Source: Nymphaea colorata (lineage: Eukaryota > Streptophyta > Magnoliopsida > Nymphaeales > Nymphaeaceae). Taken from it: a stretch of DNA of 64,000 nt. The notes under the pieces are model-generated. The model searched no databases. It was not told the DNA's origin and saw nothing but the letters and a program-made list of their open reading frames with translations. This document shows positions 4,904-57,370 of this stretch, in pieces. Where the stretch lies: assembly GCF_008831285.2 (NCBI RefSeq), contig NC_045147.1:15168854-15232853 (forward strand), written 5' to 3'. Position numbers and translations under genes: made by a program. Numbering within the stretch: the first letter of the stretch is position 1; each line of letters opens with the position of its first letter.

Positions 4904-5639
4904 ATGCGTCTTCACCCTTTCTTTAGTCCCGAGAAGACCATAGCACTAGCGACTTTTGATAATGGAATTTAGCTTTCAGGATGAACTTGGAACGCTTCTT
5001 TGCAATCCAATCAGGTTCAAACTCGTCGTATACCGACCATTTCTTTTTGTCATACTGTATTTACTATGCAGTCGTGTTCTTAATGTAAAAGGACGAGGCT
5101 CACTCTGCTCCGAGTTAGCTTGCCGCATTTTGTTATCCATGGTAGTTGAAGATAATCTTGCATACTAGTAAAGTACTGATTTACCAGTAAATTTTTCATT
5201 GGCATCCTGTTTGGGAATGGTATTTAATACATTGCTTTGACGCGCAACTTTGATCTGATAACTAGCTAAACTTTTCTCTTCCCCATAACAATAGTGTTGA
5301 TGGGCGATGGATTGTTAGCGTTACTACTCCTGCGTTTCTCACGAGTCCATGGTTAATCGATACATACTGGAACAGATTATGGACTGAGAAACGTTGCGAC
5401 AGTGAAGTATTGAGGAGCACCGACGAATTGACTATACTTAGACTTGAACCAGGCTACAGATCTCTGTAATTCAAACGATAGGAGACAAGTTTTGCATCAT
5501 CCGCAATTGTCTTCTTAAGGAACTCGGCGAATTATTTTTGTTATGTCATCAACATGTGAAGACGTAGGATCAGAGCCCACTGCTCCGCATTCAGCCTATT
5601 ATAGGCATCCTGTGTCCTTATCAGATCTATCTCCTGTCA
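4904..5639. other. 3' flank of second GASA gene with decayed copia relic
   Basis: This aligns with 757-1490 after the first GASA gene. The segment 5340-5575 is the same minus-strand copia reverse-transcriptase fragment as at 1212-1472 (shared stretch around TACTGGAACAGATTAT), but shorter and with more indels. It marks the right part of the tandem duplication. Confidence 0.7.
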
Positions 5640-6090
5640 GTTATCATGGCTAACCTGATGATCAACGATCTGCATCTGGCTTTATCTCCGTATTTCTACT
5701 TCAGAATCTCTCTTTGAGCTCACAAAAACAGGGCACTGTTGCACGATCCAGCACAGATTTAGGGTATGGGACCCTTGCTGGATCGTTTTCTAAGCTTCTT
5801 TAGCTTAGTTCTTTGCTTCAAGAACTCTGTTTTCCGTCAACTGCTTCAGAACTTGGCATAACAACTTAGGCACCACTTATCTTGCAGCAAATATTATTTC
5901 CCATGCTCGCCCGATCCATATTAAATTATGGGACTTAGTTTATCAAAAAGCCTTCCAGTTTATTTCCAGCAATGATAAAATCGAAGATACTCTTACTAAA
6001 CCTCAACTGACTGCTGAGTTTCGTTCCAAGCTGAACGTGCGATCTCCCCTACTCAGCTTGCGGGTTGTGTTGAGCCAACTGGTTCCAAAT
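5640..6090 (+). mobile_element. Ty1/copia RNase H / integrase-distal relic
   Basis: The plus strand encodes, across several frameshifts, the C-terminal copia polyprotein signature: D-D-Q-R-S-A-S-G-F, then S-S-Q-K-Q-G-T-V-A-R-S-S-T, then H-A-R-P-I-H-I-K-L-W-D and F-I-S-S-N-D-K-I-E-D-T-L-T-K-P. These match the RNase H blocks D..R.ST.G, SSKKQ..VA.SS.EAE, H.R.KHI..D and IPS.DQ.AD..TKP. Non-functional. It lies head to head with the minus-strand reverse-transcriptase relic next to it, so these are separate insertion remnants or a rearranged one. Confidence 0.85.
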
Positions 6091-12599: not shown

Positions 12600-12607
12600 C
12601 TAGAAAG

Positions 12608-13841
12608 TAGGGCTGCACAACGAGTCGAGTCAACTCGGGCTCGACTCGAACTCGCTCGGAAAAACTCGACTCGAGCTCGACTCGTTTATAAACGAGTTGA
12701 GTTCGAGCTGAAAGTTAAATTCAAATCAATAAATGAGTTGAGTTCGAGTTGTAAGAACTCGACTCGTTTATGCTCGGCTCGGCTCGGCTCGATTATTGAA
12801 ATTCGTTTCGTTTAATTATATGAACCGGTTCACCGAGTCACCGATTCACCGATTTAGGTTAAACATTTTTTGTTTATTATGTTTTCATCTTTTAACACTT
12901 TCGTTTCAACTTCTCCCTGTCGCTCTCTCATTTCTACCGCCCACGGCTGCAGCAACCCACCACCACTCCGCCCACGGCTGCAACGACTCACCACCGCTCT
13001 CTCTCCTCTCTACCACTCACCGCGGCACATGCCATGACCACCACCACTCACCTGATGTGCAACGGCGCCAAAGCAGTGGAAGGGACATTGGGGCTAACGT
13101 TAGGGTTCCTCCGATTCTAATCACCTCTCCTCACGACGGAAAGATGCAATAAGGGTAACGATGCAACCATCCAGTAGAGTCCGGCCACTATATTGGTTCG
13201 TCTCTCTTCTCCCCTTTCCCTGAAACCCTAGTGTTCCTTTGAAGCTCTGCCATACATGTTTAGGGCTTTTTTCACAGGTGGATGTCAAGATGGAGGTCGC
13301 CGAAAGACAGATGAAGAAGAGTTGATCTCAATGCCCTCCATGACATGCCCACAGAGGAGCTCATGAGACTCTTCCATGCCCTAGCTCAAATAAGGTTTGT
13401 ATCTCTCACACTCTATTTTCCATCCTCCTCTCTCTCTCTTTCTCTTTTATATGGTTTTCCATCTTTTTGACGAATGTGTAGGTTCCAGAGAGGTTTGAAG
13501 AGGAAGCTGATGGCATTGATCAAGAAAATGCACAAATCAGTAATAAATCTCTTCCTTAAATTTCATTTTGGTTGAGAAACATGTTCCTGGTTGAGTTTGA
13601 ATTGGGGTTTCATGGTGGATTTTGTTTGCTTGCATTTTGCCTTTTTTTTTTTGTTGTACCGTACAAGTTTAAAAAAACAAGTCATAAACGAGTTAATCGA
13701 GTTAAGGGAGTCGAGCTCGAGCTTGTGTCATGGAGCTTTAATCGAGTTAAGGGAGTCGAGCTCGAGCTTGTGTCATGGAGCTTGACTCGAGTTCGAGCTG
13801 GGCAAGCTCCAGCTCGACTAGACTGTGTGCAGGCAGCCCTA
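12608..13841. mobile_element. hAT-like non-autonomous element carrying an RPS15 gene fragment (Pack-hAT)
   Basis: The element begins TAGGGCTGC and ends GCAGCCCTA, giving 8-9 bp inverted ends. It is flanked by a perfect 8-bp direct repeat CTAGAAAG (12600-12607 and 13842-13849), the hAT target-site duplication length. Both subterminal regions are dense in GAGCTCGA/CTCGACTCG motifs in opposite orientations. The middle (about 12890-13560) differs in composition and holds the ribosomal protein S15 fragment annotated separately. No transposase frame is present, so movement would have needed an autonomous relative. Shorter elements with the same ends lie at 21873-22038 and 38331-38749. Confidence 0.85.
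13277..13541 (+). pseudogene. Captured fragment of cytosolic ribosomal protein S15 gene (uS19 family)
   Basis: Exon A (about 13277-13394) ends V-D-L-N-A-L-H-D-M-P-T-E-E-L-M-R-L-F-H-A then L-A-Q-I-R, and exon B (13482-about 13541) continues F-Q-R-G-L-K-R-K-L-M-A-L-I-K-K-M. Between them is an intact GTTTGT...GTGTAG intron of 87 nt, and the reading frame is kept across it. This matches the N-terminal part of plant 40S S15 (V-D-L-D-A-L-L-D-M, then R-R-F-Q-R-G-L-K-R-K-P-M-A-L-I-K-K). Upstream, a CCCTAG-containing leader and an acceptor TTTTTTCACAG|G suggest that the original 5' region was also captured. The N-terminal codons (MEVAERQMKKS) are out of frame with the S15 frame, and the C-terminal two thirds are missing. 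Retention of the intron means capture at DNA level, not through mRNA. Confidence 0.85.
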
Positions 13842-13849
13842 CTAGAAAG

Positions 13850-15000: not shown

Positions 15001-16294
15001 TCCGAAACAAATTGTAACATTCCTTTACGACCTTTTAGGTATTTTAAGACCTTTTATTTGTAATTAACTGTCATAATTTTTTTTTTTTCATTTGTTCTTT
15101 TTTAAACAATTTGTGAACTACCACCCAGGCGCTGTTAACACTTGAATTCAAAATTAATTTTTATTTATTGACATTATTAATGAACAATGAATTCAAATGT
15201 ACTTTTCCGTTGTGTTTAGTTCGCTTAATTACCCACTTCATTGTTTACCTTTTTCACCCATCAAGAGTTGGAAATAAACAATAAGTGCTCGACTTAACTC
15301 CACTTGCACATGCTCATCGCTTAATGATCAGCAGTTTGTATGAGTTTTCAGATCCTAGCGTTAATGCAAAGCAGGTAGTTGAAGTGTTTGTAGAATTTTC
15401 CTCATCATTTTTTAATAAGTGGAAAAGCAAGTAAACTTTTTTTTGGAGAAATTGTAGCTAACCAAACACCCAAAAAAAAAAGAAGAAGTTATTTTGGAGC
15501 ATCTGGAACTTTACAATGTTATCAACTGATAAAAGGCCACAAAGATGTTCAAAATTTGGACAAGTTCCCATCAAAACCAGCAGGTAAAGCACTGATCTCT
15601 TGACCTTCTTTAACTCAAGATTTCAAAGTTAATACATCAAAGTAAATAGAAAGAGACGCCAAAAACCAAACAGTAATCAAAAGGGAGGAAGTGCATATCC
15701 ATTAGCAAGAACGACAAGACTTGAGAGGAAGCAAACAAAAGGAGACAGGAAAGGAAGTGCATTTCCTGGTAACTGTGGTACAGGCAAAGAAAAAGCTGCA
15801 GTTTCTCGACTAGGAGGAAAAGCGAGTTCGCCGCTTCATGAGCTTAATAGAACCAGGCACTACTGTTGATCACTAGGAAATACAAATCCCCATCATCCCA
15901 GAGCAGGAGCACGAGAAGATTCTGCAGCAAAAGGAGCAGAGGTAAAGGGGTCCGCTTCTGCAGGCCGGTGAAAAGGACCGGACTGACTGCTCCTGGTCCT
16001 GGTCCTGACGTTTATCTTCTTCTTCTTCGGGAGTGCCTTCTCTGCGATTCCTAAGCTTCATCTTTTTCCTCTCCGAGGCAGCTCTGAGTCACAACCCACA
16101 ATGATGAAAGAAGGAAAAAGTTGAACGCCGAATGGAGATGGGAACAAATTTTGATTGTGAAGGTATCGAATGCAATGAGATAAAATTGACCACCCAACGA
16201 TCCGCATATTTGCACAGTGCCCAAGCACAAGGGTCTGTTTCAATTGAAGCGCACCAAAGCAAACGCGAATATACCTTCTTTCATACGTATGTAT
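15001..16294. other. Intergenic, no gene recognised
   Basis: No supported gene. A purine-rich segment at about 15860-16070 has overlapping frames on both strands, with a lysine/glutamate-rich minus-strand frame, but no domain that can be defended. Confidence 0.45.
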
Positions 16295-16376
16295 ATATGT
16301 ATATGTATTCTCGGACTCAAACATGCGCAGATGTTATATGTATATGTATTCTCGGACTCAAACATGCGCAGATGTT
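16295..16376 (+). repeat. Perfect 41-bp tandem duplication
   Basis: Two identical 41-bp units, 16295-16335 and 16336-16376, start ATATGTATATGTATTCTC and end GCGCAGATGTT. Identity indicates a very recent duplication. They lie about 1 kb beyond the stop codon of the DELLA gene and outside any supported coding sequence. Confidence 0.95.
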
Positions 16377-17360: not shown

Positions 17361-19187
17361 TCACGAGGAGGAGGACGCGGAAGAGGGGAGGAGCTGCCAG
17401 GCGGAGGTGGCGATGAGGGGGCGGGTGTGCCATCCGAGCATAAGGCACCCATTGTTCTCTTCCACCCTGTAACCGTCCCCACCGGCGAAGAGAGCCAGCA
17501 GCATGCTCGCCTGCTTGAACGCGTTGGATCCCAGGTGGACGGGAGCGAAGCCGGCCGCCCCCATTCTCGCCCTCCACTGCCCCAGCGTCTCGTGGCGCTC
17601 CACCCGCTCGGCACCCTCGCACGCCACGATGTTGCATATCTGCCGCCCGAGATACACTTCCGACATCACCTGGTCCTGTCCGGTAGCCGGCGACGACCCT
17701 CCTGTGCAGCCCTCGAGCGAGTCGAACAATGATGAGTAGTAGTGAAGAGCCTCCGTGAAGCGGTCAAGGAAAACTGGCCCATTGTGAGCGGCCTCCTGCT
17801 CGACCATCGTCACGATCTGTGGCTGGACGCTGCGCACCAGCGACAGCACCTTGTCCATTGCCCCCGGCTGCGCCAGCAGCTGATGGAGCTCGAAGATGGA
17901 GTTCACTGCCACCACCTCACCATCGGTGGGTCGGAGGTCGAGCATGTAGGCCTCGATGTCCGCCAGGCTTGCGGCCACGAGGCCACGGTACTCGAACTCG
18001 ACGTTGATGGTCTCCGCGAACTGGGCGAGCTTCCATCCGACCTCCTGCAAGGGGTCGGAGTTGTCCCGTTGGGGAGGGCCGACGCCGGTGAGGCGGAAAG
18101 CAGGCGGGCCGCCGGGGCGGAGTGCCAGTGCCTGCATGAGCGCCGGCCACTGCATCCCCTGCTTCATGCTGAAGTCGATCACGTGGACCCGGGGTTTGCC
18201 GGCGAAGGCCTCCAGGATGGCCTGGTTGGCAGTGAAGTGGGCGAACTTGAGGTATGGGCAAGCTTCGTAGAAATGCATCTGGAGGAGGTCGGAGAAGGCG
18301 TCATTAGGGGAATCACTCGGGTAAAGGCGGTAGATCCGGCGGGCGAGCGCCTCTGCGAAGAAGGTGGCGACCTTTCTCATTGCTCCTGCTTGAGAAGCCG
18401 CCAAGACGCCAATCTGCTTCACCAGTGCTTCTGCCAACTTGAGGTTGTCCTGCTGGATGGCCTCTGCGCAGGCCATCAGGGTGTGGACCAAACGGATGCC
18501 CGTCTCCTGCGAGTCCACCACCACCACTGGCCGCGGCTCCACCGGTGCTGGCGTCGGCACCGGTACCGCTTCCGACGCGAGGGGCTCCTCCAATTTCATA
18601 CGCTTCTTTTGCCTAGGAACCCCACGACCGTACACGACCCCCTCTATGCCTGAGATTTCGTCACTAAAATCTGGCGGTAGGAGAGGCGGGGGAAGAATTG
18701 TTTCCTTACCGCTGGCGGTGGAGGAAGATTCTGCCCGCTGGTGTTGAACGTGGTGTTCGGAACTCCAACCAGGATGACCGGCCGTGGCGGTTGTCGTGGT
18801 GGTGGTGGTGCTTGCCACGGTGGTTGTCCCGGAGAGATTGGTAGCCACGTCGCCCAGATTTGGGGAAGGCGGAGGGTTCAGCTCCGAGAGCATGGTCTCG
18901 ATCCAGGTCGCTATATCGGAGGGGTTGTAGTGCACGGTCTCGGAGGAGAGGTGCGATATGCCGTCCTCCTGAGCGCTGCCCATCACCATCTCCAATTGCT
19001 CCAGCTTCTGCGCCACCTCTGCCATGTCCGACGACCGGACGTTGTACCCCAAGGCCGCCAGCAGCTCGTCCACCCCGGCGTCGGGCTCCTCCATTTTGAC
19101 CTTTCCGGTGGCCGGACACTTGGCTCCGCCTTCTTCCGGAAACTGTAGCTGGTGATCCGGGCGATGATAATGGGGCTCCATCTTCAT
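17361..19187 (-). CDS. DELLA protein (GRAS family gibberellin-signalling repressor), 608 aa, intronless
   Basis: One uninterrupted frame runs from ATG at 19187 to TGA at 17361. N-terminal regulatory domain: DELLA motif [10 protein letters not shown] at residues 39-48, LExLE-type helix at about 62-67, and TVHYNP at 84-89. A Thr-rich linker (120-133) and a basic patch R-Q-K-K-R-M-K (192-198, possible nuclear signal) follow. The GRAS domain covers about 230-600: LHR1 from 230, V-H-V-I-D at 334-338, LHR2 at 390-440, PFYRE region with [12 protein letters not shown] at 473-484, R-V-E-R-H-E-T at 528-534, and the SAW end [13 protein letters not shown]. Family role: a nuclear transcription regulator that restrains growth until GID1 with bound gibberellin triggers its degradation. 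Both GID1-contact motifs are present, so it should respond to gibberellin. Length and the lack of introns are typical. The coding region is strongly GC-rich. Confidence 0.97.
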
Positions 19188-21872: not shown

Positions 21873-22038
21873 TAGGGCTGGGCGGTTGATAACTCACTCT
21901 CTTTCCGCATTTTCTAACTCGTTTATCATCTTTGTAAGCTCGAACTCGGCTCGTCTATAAATAAGTCGAGCACAAACCAAGTTGTTTCAAGCAAGTTTGA
22001 GTCGAGTTCGAGTTGACTTGGCTCTTTATACAGCCCTA
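21873..22038. mobile_element. Short hAT-like element of the TAGGGCTG family
   Basis: Starts TAGGGCTG, ends CAGCCCTA (perfect 8-bp inverted ends, 166 bp apart) and contains TCGAG/CTCGAACTCGG motifs like those of the Pack-hAT at 12608-13841. The flanking 8-mers (AATTCCAA and CCCTCGGG) do not match, so the target duplication is lost or the element is rearranged. Confidence 0.6.
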
Positions 22039-29818: not shown

Positions 29819-30897
29819 ATGTGTGATAACAGAACAGAGAAACCTCTCGAGGGCTCAGAGAGTGCACCATTGTACAATGAACTACAGAATGACGTGATCG
29901 ATATGAACCCGGACGCAATGCATGGTTGGGGAGCATTACCAACGATGCCGGAAGCGTCAACCTTCTTCCCCTGGCCGATTCCCGTGGCTAACAGCTTTCA
30001 CTTCTCGCCAGTTCCGCCCAGGGATCACCACCACGACAATTTCTTTGGCTTTGCTCCCGGATCGAGGCCTTCGTCTTCCTCTCCTGCGTCAATCTTCCAA
30101 GGATACCATCGTCTCGGCCTCCAGTTTGGTTTCGAGCGGCCGGATTTGTTTCCAGGAGTCGGCATCTACGCCGGCACCGACCACGTAGGCTACGGCATCG
30201 GTGGCTCTCCTTCCCCGTTTGGCCTTCAGGCCGAGCTGTCGAAGCTGACGGCGCAGGAGATCATGGACGCTAAGGCGCTTGCCGCGTCCAAGAACCACAG
30301 CGAGGCAGAACGCAGGAGGCGAGGGCGCATCAATGGGCACCTTGACAAGCTACGTACTCTCCTCCCCAATGCAACAAAAGTAAGATCTCTGATGCCAAAG
30401 ACCAAAACGATGAATTAAAGTCACAAACTAATCGTATCTTGCCTTGTCTATATTTTGCTCTCTTCATGACCTAAACTCTACCACCAACATTACTGCACAA
30501 GGAGGACGATTCTTGATCAAGATATAAAAATACTCAAAATAGTATAAAAATACGTAGACTTCAGATCAGTTGGCCGAGGTTTTAAGCTCTAGTTAGTTAG
30601 AAAGACAGTCTAACGAAGTGTATGGGCACTATAACTTCTTTTGTTGATGCATCTTTTGTTCGTGGGGAGTTCCAAAAAAAAGACAGGAGGGAGTTTTTAG
30701 GTTGCTTGGATCTGTGTGATGCTTTCAGTGGTGCCATCCGGTTGATGTGAAAAAGAGAAACCAGACTGTCAAAAAAACATGCTTGGGGGAAAGGAATGTT
30801 GGGGTGGAAAAGAAAAACAGGCATTATTGTCAGTAAGTTCTTTATACGCGATATCCTTTTCGTTGGCCTAGGCATGCATGCAGGTCTAGGAAATTAC

Positions 30898-38330: not shown

Positions 38331-38749
38331 TAGGGCTGCACAACTAGCAGAGCCAGCTCGGGCTCCACTTAAACTTGCCGAAAAAACTTGGCTCGTGCTC
38401 GACTCATTTATAAACGAGCCGAGTTCGAGCTTACAAAGATACTCGAAACGAAAAACAAGTCAAGTTCGAGTTTCAAGAACTCGACTCGATTCGCAAACCG
38501 GTACCCTATATAATATTGTCAAAACTGGCTTAACAAGTTATACGAGTTAAAAATTACACGAGTTGTTGAATGAGTTAATGTTTACATCCATGCGTACATG
38601 ATAAGTTAATGTTGAATGAGTTAGCACCTAAATGAGTTAAATTGGTTAAACGAGTCAAGTTCAAGCCACGCTCGAGCTTGAGTTTTTTTTAGCTGAATCG
38701 AGTTTGAGCTGGCAAAGCTGGAGCTCAACTCGGCTAGTGTGCAGTCCTA
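38331..38749. mobile_element. hAT-like element of the TAGGGCTG family, 419 bp
   Basis: Starts TAGGGCTGCACAACTAG and ends CTAGTGTGCAGTCCTA, giving inverted ends with one or two mismatches. Subterminal GAGTTCGAG/CTCGACTC motifs match those in the Pack-hAT. Flanking 8-mers GGGGGGAG and GGGAGAGA are not a clean duplication. No coding content. Confidence 0.65.
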
Positions 38750-52148: not shown

Positions 52149-54947
52149 TTATAGGCCCATTAGAATGTAGTACACGAGCGTGATGGGCAGAGCTATCAGC
52201 ATTCCAAAAATCACTCTGAAACATGTAAACGGAAAAGTTTTGAGGGAAACCCACGTATTTTAACCAGAGAGACAAGATATAAAGGGTGATTTTGCTGTGT
52301 AAAAACAAAAATAAATGCAGAGAGAGGGAGAGCTGTCCTAACTCACCCAGTGCTGAGTATATCAGGATGTACGTTGTACTCCTTGGCGAAGACGAAGGGG
52401 ACAATGCCCTGCGGCAGTGCTGCCTGTTCCACAACAAAACACTGCACCTTTTAGTTTTATATAAGAAATATGGGACTACCACTTTCTTTGCTTTCCTTTT
52501 CCCCGTAGCCGTAAACAGTAAAATTCCTTTATGCCTTTCACTGATTCAACGAAGCAAAATCAGAAAAAGGAAAAGAAAAAAAAAAAGCAGGAAGGGGACA
52601 GGAGTAGAGAGCAAATTTCTTTTAGGTGTACTGCCAGCTAAAGAAAGAAAAAGAGGGATTCGGATTGTCTGGAAGAGGCAGACCTGCACAATGGCGACGT
52701 GAAGGAGGACACCACGCAATCCAACAGCAATGGAAGCAGCAGCCATCACGGCCGGACCCGCAAGGAATCTCACGGCCATGGAAAAGGCCGCGATTGTGTT
52801 TCCGCACGCTATGATCCTCGGTTGCAATGCCATGAACAGCCCTGCAATCCACCATCATCACGGCCACCAACATAAGCCAAGTATCTCAGCCATAAAAAAC
52901 CGCCCATAGTAACCAAGAATTGCCTCTCTCTCTCACTCTCTCTCTCTCCCTTGAAGAAACGGAAGCCAGTCGAGTGCTTTACCCAAGCTAAACATAGCCA
53001 TTCCAAGACCAGCATCTGAAAGGATAGAGATGGACTTCGCAATGATGGCTGGCATGGCCACATTCCACCTGCATAGTAAAGTTTAAGTCAACAATTAAAC
53101 AAACCATTAAAGAAGAAAACTAGACTTGGTTGTTGGTTTAGTTGTTACTATCTTTATCCTTTGGACATAAATAAAACTAACAGACAATTGAACAACTTAT
53201 TACAGAATCTATCTCAATCAACCAAACATCGGAGATCGCATTCAGGAAGTAAACTAGAACAGATCAAAATAGAGCCTGAAATCTCTCTCTCTCTCTCACG
53301 TGCATATACAGGGTAAGAACGAGTAAGTACTTGAACGAAACGAGGGACCAAGTAAGGCCGACGAGACTCGAGTAAGTGTTGGGGTTCCTGATAAGCTTCC
53401 TCCACACCATGATGAGGATGAGCCTCGTCATCACGCTGGCCGGAGGCATGGAAGTGGGCTTGCCCTCTCTGGCATCGGACTCCATCTCCACCTTCACGCA
53501 CTGCCCCTCCCTCTCGTCCCCTTGCAGCACCCCAGCGTTCCCGAAGGTAAACCCCTCTCTCTGGTAATCCTCCCAATTCATCTCCCCTTCACCCACCAAC
53601 AGAAGAAAAAAATTTAAAGTATTCAATATTCAGAAAATAAAAGAGACCAACAAACCAGAAAGAGCAACGCAATCAACTAATCAAGAAGCAATCGGACCAC
53701 AGAGAAGGAAAAAGATAAGGCACACCTTTGGCCGCAGCACTGTTCATCTTCACCTCCTTCACATTCTGATCGTTCCCATACTCTGATTGACCGCCAAAGA
53801 CATGATGAAGCCCCGCCTCGGATACCGGTGAAGCGCTCGAGCTCCACACGAACATATGGAGGTCCTTGCCAGGCTCGTCGCTCTGCGTCGTCTGAAACGC
53901 CCCACTGTTGGCCTTCCCTAACAGTACCGCCGGAGGTCCTGAAGGCTGCTGCGGTTTGGGGGAAAACATCCCGGTGTTCGGGGCCGGATACTGCACGGCA
54001 CCAGTAGCAAACCGCCCCCTAGAAGGCGGGGGAGGAAGAGAACCAGGATGGTGATGGTAATGGTGAGAATCTTCGTCGTAGTTAGAAGGCCGAGGAGTCT
54101 GCCCCTTGGGGAAGCCGTCGCCGGGGCCGAAGCTCGAGTGGCGCGGGCTGCGGCCGCTGGCGCCGGTGACCATGGAATAGAAATCAGTATGGTTGAAGCT
54201 GGAGCCCCTCGGCGTCGGGTTGCGCGAGGATTGCAGCGAGTAGATCTCCGCGTTGGTGAGGTTCGAAGGACGAGGAGTAAGGCCCTGATGCCGCGAGAAG
54301 ATTTCCGATCTCGACGACGTCGACTTGCGCACCGTGACGTGCAGCTTCCCGTCCTCCCCGACCTCCGCCTCCGTCTGGAGCGGCTCCCGCCCGTCCAGCG
54401 ACATGACGTCGGAGTCCACCTTGAACGACACGATGGAGCCGGCGGTGCCCGGAAATTGTTCCGTGATCAGCATCCGCGCGCCTCTGTACTCGAACATGAA
54501 GAGCATCAGGGTGTACCAGATGATGCATTGCAGGACGACGATCTGAACCATGAGCGAGCCCGAGAACTCGCCGTACATGCCCTTCAGCAAAGGAATGCCC
54601 ATCACTAGGGTGTTGGGGAGCGTCGAGAGGGAGAAGAGGGTGATGGTCCATTCCAAGCATCCCCTCCGGCTAACGTTGGCCCAAACGGCCAGCAGCCCAA
54701 GCACGATGAGCTTCTGCAGCGTGTCCGCGATGATGAAGCGGAGGTTCATTGTGTAGGGGTCATTGGTGGAGATGAAATGAAAGGAGAGGAGCGGCACGGC
54801 GAAGAGGGCCACGAAGCGGTTGATCCCGGAGCACTGGTCGGGGGTGAAGATCTTCCACCATTTCACGGAGCCGTAGGCGAGTATCATGGCCACGTAAAGC
54901 GGCACCATCGCGGTCATCACGTGGTAGAAGTCTGCTGCGGTGATCAT
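52149..54947 (-). CDS. PIN-type auxin efflux carrier (long canonical PIN, 621 aa, six exons)
   Basis: Exons in coding order: 54947-53726, 53586-53331, 53068-52983, 52841-52684, 52423-52347, 52215-52149 (stop TAA). All introns are GT..AG and the phases join without error. The start sits in GCCGCCACCATGATC. Residues 1-160 form the N-terminal membrane domain (start as in PIN1, with [11 protein letters not shown] at 110-120). Residues 165-455 are the long cytosolic loop with three TPRxS sites (TPRPS 224-228, TPRGS 245-249, TPRPS 284-288) used by PID/WAG-type kinases. Residues 458-621 are the C-terminal membrane domain with N-P-N-T-Y at 475-479 and the end [13 protein letters not shown]. Family role: plasma-membrane auxin export giving directional transport. 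Features are mixed between PIN1 (N-terminus) and PIN3 (F-I-S-T-N, S-F-K-V-D-S-D), so subgroup is not assigned. A decayed duplicate lies about 12 kb away. Confidence 0.97.
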
Positions 54948-57284: not shown

Positions 57285-57370
57285 AAGGTTGTGTGCACTT
57301 GTTCAATACAAAAGCTGTTTTCTAAGCAAGGTTGTGTGCACTTGTTCAATACAAAAGCTGTTTTCTAAGT
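57285..57370 (+). repeat. 43-bp tandem duplication, 42 of 43 identical
   Basis: Units 57285-57327 and 57328-57370 begin AAGGTTGTGTGCACTTG and end TTTTCTAAG(C/T). Near identity indicates a recent event. Non-coding. Confidence 0.95.

Follow-up and report, generated by a model that had tools for sequence, protein, structure and literature searches.

A very probable Pack-hAT transposon carrying part of an RPS15 gene in Nymphaea colorata

How does a piece of a ribosomal protein gene, intron included, come to lie between the ends of a small DNA transposon? The question is raised by positions 12608-13841 of the window, that is, of the whole 64,000-nucleotide stretch analysed here (C10:15168854-15232853 of a 408-Mb assembly of 783 contigs). 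The initial annotation had read this segment as a hAT-like element containing exons of ribosomal protein S15 (uS19), a reading that gains support from the donor gene, the repeated ends and the copies at multiple sites described below. We consider it very probable (about 0.95) that the segment is a non-autonomous hAT-type element, a Pack-hAT, that captured about 630 bp of the RPS15 gene on contig C1, later lost the exon with the ATG and spread with the remainder as passenger DNA.

Ends, target duplication and relatives in the window

The element spans 1,234 bp in total; its inverted ends agree perfectly over 9 bp and its target-site duplication over 8 bp, with TAGGGCTGC, GCAGCCCTA and CTAGAAAG exactly as first described. 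It is organized as follows.

12600..12607, no strand: left copy of the 8-bp target-site duplication, CTAGAAAG, read from the sequence
12608..12616, + strand: left terminal inverted repeat, TAGGGCTGC, common to loci L003, L039, L049 and others
12608..13196, + strand: 5′ transposon backbone, its subterminal part rich in CTCGA/TCGAG
13047..13163, + strand: 117-bp stretch (element 440-556) where the match rows of many copies break, a statement at the level of match rows
13640..13841, + strand: 3′ transposon backbone, holding a perfect 45-bp tandem duplication (13693-13782)
13833..13841, − strand: right terminal inverted repeat, GCAGCCCTA, from the sequence and other loci
13842..13849, no strand: right copy of the target-site duplication, CTAGAAAG, read from the sequence

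The ends of hAT elements are short and inverted, with the consensus start YARNG. Here each end begins with TAGGG, and the 8-bp length of the duplication is also that expected of a hAT element. Like plant Pack-MULEs, this is a DNA transposon that captures gene fragments; however, Pack-MULEs are Mutator-like, with long terminal inverted repeats and 9-bp target duplications, and the 9-bp perfect ends and 8-bp duplication place the present element outside that group. Beyond the perfect 9 bp the inverted similarity is only loose; when reversed, the right end can be aligned with the left-end profile along some 80 positions (E 6e-5).

After exclusion of simple sequence, a scan of the window for pairs of perfect 9-bp inverted ends, separated by 80-6000 bp and each bordered by one copy of a perfect 8-bp direct repeat, returned this element alone. 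As the same scan gave a hit in three of 50 Markov-simulated windows, and as taking the duplication at a wrong offset gave seven hits in total over 60 scans, the ends and duplication, taken by themselves, are no more than moderately improbable as a chance result and are thus suggestive. Without the filter, 773 pairs were obtained in the window, and the 40 listed consisted of 39 TA repeats and this element (control: a hit in one of 50 shuffled windows). The element is settled as real by the fact that other insertions start and stop at identical bases while their flanks differ. A blastn comparison between the element and the remainder of the window brought up two relatives.

21929..22038, − strand: 5′ end of a third family member, in reverse orientation
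38331..38749, + strand: related 419-bp element with similar ends and no S15 insert, whose 8-bp flanks match poorly

Alignments of the three members have a common first base. Within the element, 17 and 15 of the 20 outermost bases agree, compared with 3, 3 and 7 of 20 in the flanks examined. Ends confined to a single copy would have told against the initial annotation; they recur in the window and, as shown below, in the genome.

Several other features of the window should be recorded. A DELLA/GRAS protein frame of 608 amino acids lies at 17361-19187 on the minus strand (Pfam DELLA and GRAS), and the end of the reversed family member at 22038 is less than 3 kb upstream of it. A helix-loop-helix protein frame (Pfam HLH) occupies 29819-30418 on the plus strand, and a membrane transport protein frame (Pfam Mem_trans), which we take to be PIN-like, occupies 53673-54947 on the minus strand. 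Perfect or near-perfect two-copy tandem duplications are found at 57285-57369 (43-bp unit) and 16289-16376 (41-bp unit). Rfam gave no match over the whole window at gathering thresholds.

The S15 segment and its donor gene

Using a plant uS19 sequence as a tblastn query, we found residues 24-69 at 13315-13539 (E 2e-8), with 29 codons within this interval corresponding to an intron; the next-best match in the window had an E of 0.17. The sole significant match therefore lies inside the element, and no S15 pseudogene was seen to run past 12608 or 13841. Against PDB chains the spliced piece matched uS19 of 4v7e and 8auv (E about 1-2e-11), presumably both plant ribosomes. A Pfam scan with the spliced piece, 50 residues long, returned a single unrelated row below threshold and no S15 family.

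A uS19 protein search of the genome returned 23 rows: three from an RPS15 gene on C1 (17145266-17148029, minus strand), three from an RPS15 gene on C6 (9245077-9249408, plus strand), two from C624 and 15 from copies of the element, the broken S15 piece of the window itself not being among them. The C624 frame (5576-6006, locus L048) is uS19-like, lies on a 30-kb contig and is just 56% identical to plant uS19; it is possibly a contaminant or a divergent copy. Exon 1 of both RPS15 genes stops at the ATG, and exons 2 and 3 of the C1 gene end near residues 50 and 69, as read from the genomic sequence rather than from a transcript.

Element positions 593-662 match the 5′ UTR of the C1 gene at 82%, and positions 653-998 match the same gene from the end of intron 1 through intron 3 at 78%. 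Sequence comparison assigns the captured piece to this C1 gene, of which about 630 bp, from the 5′ UTR to intron 3 and including introns, were taken. The comparison with genomic RPS15 loci that had been proposed thus yields a donor on C1. Since the introns of this gene came along and are present in the element, the capture took place at the DNA level, as had been claimed. The element hence contains identifiable host gene DNA with the donor still elsewhere in the genome, as in Pack-TYPE elements. The C6 gene was rejected as donor: for this element only the surroundings of exons 2 and 3 match it, and where the match extends over intron 2, in several other copies, it stands at 66-71%, compared with 82-86% to C1 in the same copies. 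Between exons 3 and 4 of the C6 gene there is a 338-bp stretch (L030, 3981-4318) which resembles part of locus L038 at 85% and may be another repeat inside the intron. In the copy in the window the captured parts are the following.

13200..13269, + strand: RPS15 5′ UTR piece (donor 2255-2325, by donor comparison), joined to the end of intron 1 via a deletion of about 128 bp
13278..13394, + strand: RPS15 exon 2, which, compared with the donor gene, is frameshifted and has suffered a net loss of 26 bp
13395..13481, + strand: RPS15 intron 2, 87 bp, GT..AG (tblastn and donor comparison)
13482..13539, + strand: RPS15 exon 3 (tblastn and donor comparison)
13540..13639, + strand: start of RPS15 intron 3 (to 13605 by blastn of the copy itself, beyond that by the alignment of all copies)

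The intact GT..AG intron of the initial annotation is therefore there, and the interval given for S15 (13277-13541) does contain it, although the capture is wider, at about 13200-13639. The description as two in-frame pieces is true of the part between residue 24 and the intron and of the passage across the intron, but not of the rest of exon 2, owing to the 26-bp net deletion and frameshift. The CpG observed/expected ratio is 0.24 in the S15 stretch, which is short, compared with 0.74 in the window; methylation decay would fit this depletion.

Copies in the genome and the order of events

The DNA search of the genome with the element gave 101 match rows from the 40 of 1802 candidates that were scored, so that the copy numbers below are lower bounds. 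We examined 39 element loci (34 of 37 extracted stretches and five loci from the DNA search; the element of the window is L001). An automatic scan found ends and a duplication in 18 of them; the duplication is perfect over 8 bp in 16 (ATAGTGAC, TTGATATC, CTCAAATC, GCTGGGGA and GTTGATGG being examples), 7/8 in L058 and 6/8 in L037. The scan detected none in the other 21, to which truncation, divergence and the limits of the scan may each contribute.

Matches to the C1 gene are present in 22 of the 39 loci; in L052 there is a weak one of 40 bp, and 16 loci have backbone without S15. Leaving out L043, which is only a remnant, we aligned 21 S15 copies. Comparison of their flanks identified L003, L006, L046 and L047 as one duplicated insertion and L031, L032, L033 and L045 as another; with 13 further copies at single sites, this makes 15 distinct sites. 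The suggested search for copies with the insert has thus returned at least 21 at 15 sites, counting that of the window. Seven S15 copies have a perfect duplication by the scan (L001, L003, L006, L034, L039, L046 and L047), four of them representing one insertion, and L037, with its 6/8, is likewise an S15 copy. The 117-bp stretch at 13047..13163 is crossed by a single match in six copies (L002-L007), of which four are one duplicated insertion.

The captured DNA moves with the element, with largely common borders. The left match border falls at donor position 2253-2255 in 19 of the 21 copies (exceptions L033 and L041) and the right one at 2878-2883 in 18 (exceptions L034, L040 and the element of the window). 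Column by column, agreement with the donor is 0.34-0.52 before the left border and 0.76-0.93 after it, and at the right border it drops from 0.72 to 0.16. As at least 21 copies at 15 sites mostly share borders, a single capture followed by amplification is likeliest. Twenty of the 21 copies, including that of the window, lack donor positions of about 2326-2453 or more, that is, the ATG exon and most of intron 1. The remaining copy, L042 (C6:9.47 Mb), retains the whole segment continuously at 85% identity to the donor; it has the left end TAGGGCTGC, a matching right end and, by eye, the flank repeat GATGTCAG with one extra base. L042 groups with the gene (support 95/93) in a tree from which the truncated L040 was omitted and in which six of 18 inner branches have support below 80. 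Capture, then deletion, then spread is the simplest history.

Portions of the 5′ backbone (12608..13196) are common to relatives without S15, two of which mark its border with the captured DNA. L058 and L060 share the backbone up to or nearly to CCGGCCACTAT and then diverge, whereas the S15 copies continue into donor sequence. At this left junction backbone and donor both have the five bases ACTAT, a likeness suggestive of repair using short homology. An ancestral element took about 630 bp of the C1 gene (5′ UTR, exon 1, intron 1, exon 2, intron 2, exon 3 and into intron 3), most likely by template switching during repair of an excision break, which ACTAT would fit. The ATG exon and most of intron 1 were deleted after capture in the lineage of 20 of the 21 copies, and the element then moved to many sites (15 flanks for 21 copies, several with their own 8-bp duplications). 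At 1.2 kb it is probably too short for a hAT transposase gene, and a transposase acting in trans, recognizing the common ends and subterminal repeats, would presumably have mobilized it.

Interiors were compared for 11 of the 17 loci with no or nearly no S15. Three sets could be distinguished, namely L050/L052-L056, L057/L058/L060 and L049/L051, and at E 1e-8 no interior of one set matches one of another. The interiors of L049-L058 and L060, lying between similar ends, are possibly further captures. In L052 a 34-bp stretch is 91% like element 681-714, in the exon-2 part (40 bp at 82% to the gene); this locus is perhaps a recombinant of two interior types, or the likeness is perhaps due to chance.

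Coding state, rival explanations and known hAT captures

The S15 piece is decaying passenger DNA with no working reading frame: read from exon 2, stops are present in all 20 copies that span exons 2 and 3 (L040 being truncated). We may wonder whether it nevertheless functions, being transcribed and giving small RNAs or a spliced S15-containing transcript. The 5′ UTR piece has been kept, exon 2 read alone is stop-free in several copies, and the GT and AG of intron 2 are retained in 20 of the 20 copies spanning this intron. However, 74 of 211 intron columns are invariant anyway, so that the kept splice sites are weak evidence, and we rejected constraint on them. The 20 copies spanning both exons differ from the gene by 0.070-0.145 in their exons and by 0.156-0.237 in their introns, a pattern that could arise if the element decays neutrally while the gene is under constraint. 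The leader of the initial annotation is a genuine RPS15 5′ UTR, but the self-promoted expression that it implied is unsupported, because a TATA-like sequence of the donor lies at or immediately before the start of the captured stretch, so that a full promoter was probably not taken, and because the ATG exon is deleted. With stops in every copy spanning both exons, function of the captured piece appears very unlikely. Nor did we retain the idea that the element encodes another protein, a Pfam scan of two of its 13 stop-free stretches of at least 45 amino acids having given no hit.

The broken reading frame is pseudogene-like, as it would be if a transposon had landed in or beside an existing RPS15 pseudogene or retrocopy. 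Yet a retrocopy would not be expected to hold the donor intron sequence found here, and mostly the same borders recur with the same backbone in 21 copies at 15 sites; moreover, there is no S15 similarity outside the element within the window, and the copies are not one large segmental duplication, only two groups of four sharing flanks. The intron sequence and repeated borders lead us to reject this origin, whose residual probability is close to nil. A different route of capture deserves somewhat more credit while still being unlikely: two elements flanking an RPS15 segment could have been co-mobilized by their outer ends, tandem insertion and re-mobilization having been proposed for Pack-TYPE elements of several superfamilies, including hAT, in PMC8903248. 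Against it, blastn of the element versus 7.5 kb around the donor gene found nothing element-like besides the S15 match, and the left junction is located inside the backbone, at the point common to the relatives without S15, rather than at an element end. Capture of the C1 segment into an existing hAT-type backbone thus remains our preferred reading.

The view that hAT elements are much less known for gene capture is correct insofar as such cases are reported as rare, but they have been in print since 2008 and 2011 (PMC2528002 and PMC3260210). PMC3260210 describes gene fragments in two Ds2 and nine Ds-l4 maize elements, terms this rare for hAT elements and reports that Ds2-22 holds exons 5 and 6 of an ILR1-like gene with their intron. 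Our element resembles these Ds2-22 and Ds-l4 elements in being a hAT with an 8-bp duplication and subterminal repeats, and resembles Ds2-22 in carrying exon-intron-exon DNA whose source gene lies on another chromosome; it differs from the Ds elements described there in its ends and family, in its ribosomal protein donor and in the presence of the fragment at no fewer than 15 sites. The grapevine Hatvine-6 hAT elements carry intron and exon sequences of host genes, according to PMC2528002, and share with our family the common ends, the variable interiors and the intron/exon matches to host genes. They also share a transposase coding sequence, whereas none was detected here in the two frames scanned with Pfam. 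The name Pack-hAT is itself in print for maize and rice elements, and as presented in PMC8903248 these have inverted ends, an 8-bp duplication, captured coding DNA and a non-autonomous nature in common with ours, the species and end families being different. Among the matches listed in the literature on hAT, transduplication and ribosomal protein S15, no title names a capture of S15.

It is tempting to go further and see a hAT family unusually prone to interior swapping, in which at least four interiors, showing no similarity to one another at the threshold applied, lie between similar ends. Its S15 version would then spread an RPS15 segment that has a 5′ UTR and splice sites and might be exonized or produce small RNAs. 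We regard this as improbable; if true, the spread segment could feed back on the RPS15 gene. The present case clearly illustrates a process known from other plants and is ordinary in kind; published examples of hAT capture already include introns, so that the general picture stays as it was. It is, however, a well-resolved hAT gene capture, with the donor, both borders, a copy of the whole segment, the later deletion, the amplification and relatives without S15 in one genome. Because all these stages are visible together, the family is useful for studying how hAT elements acquire DNA.
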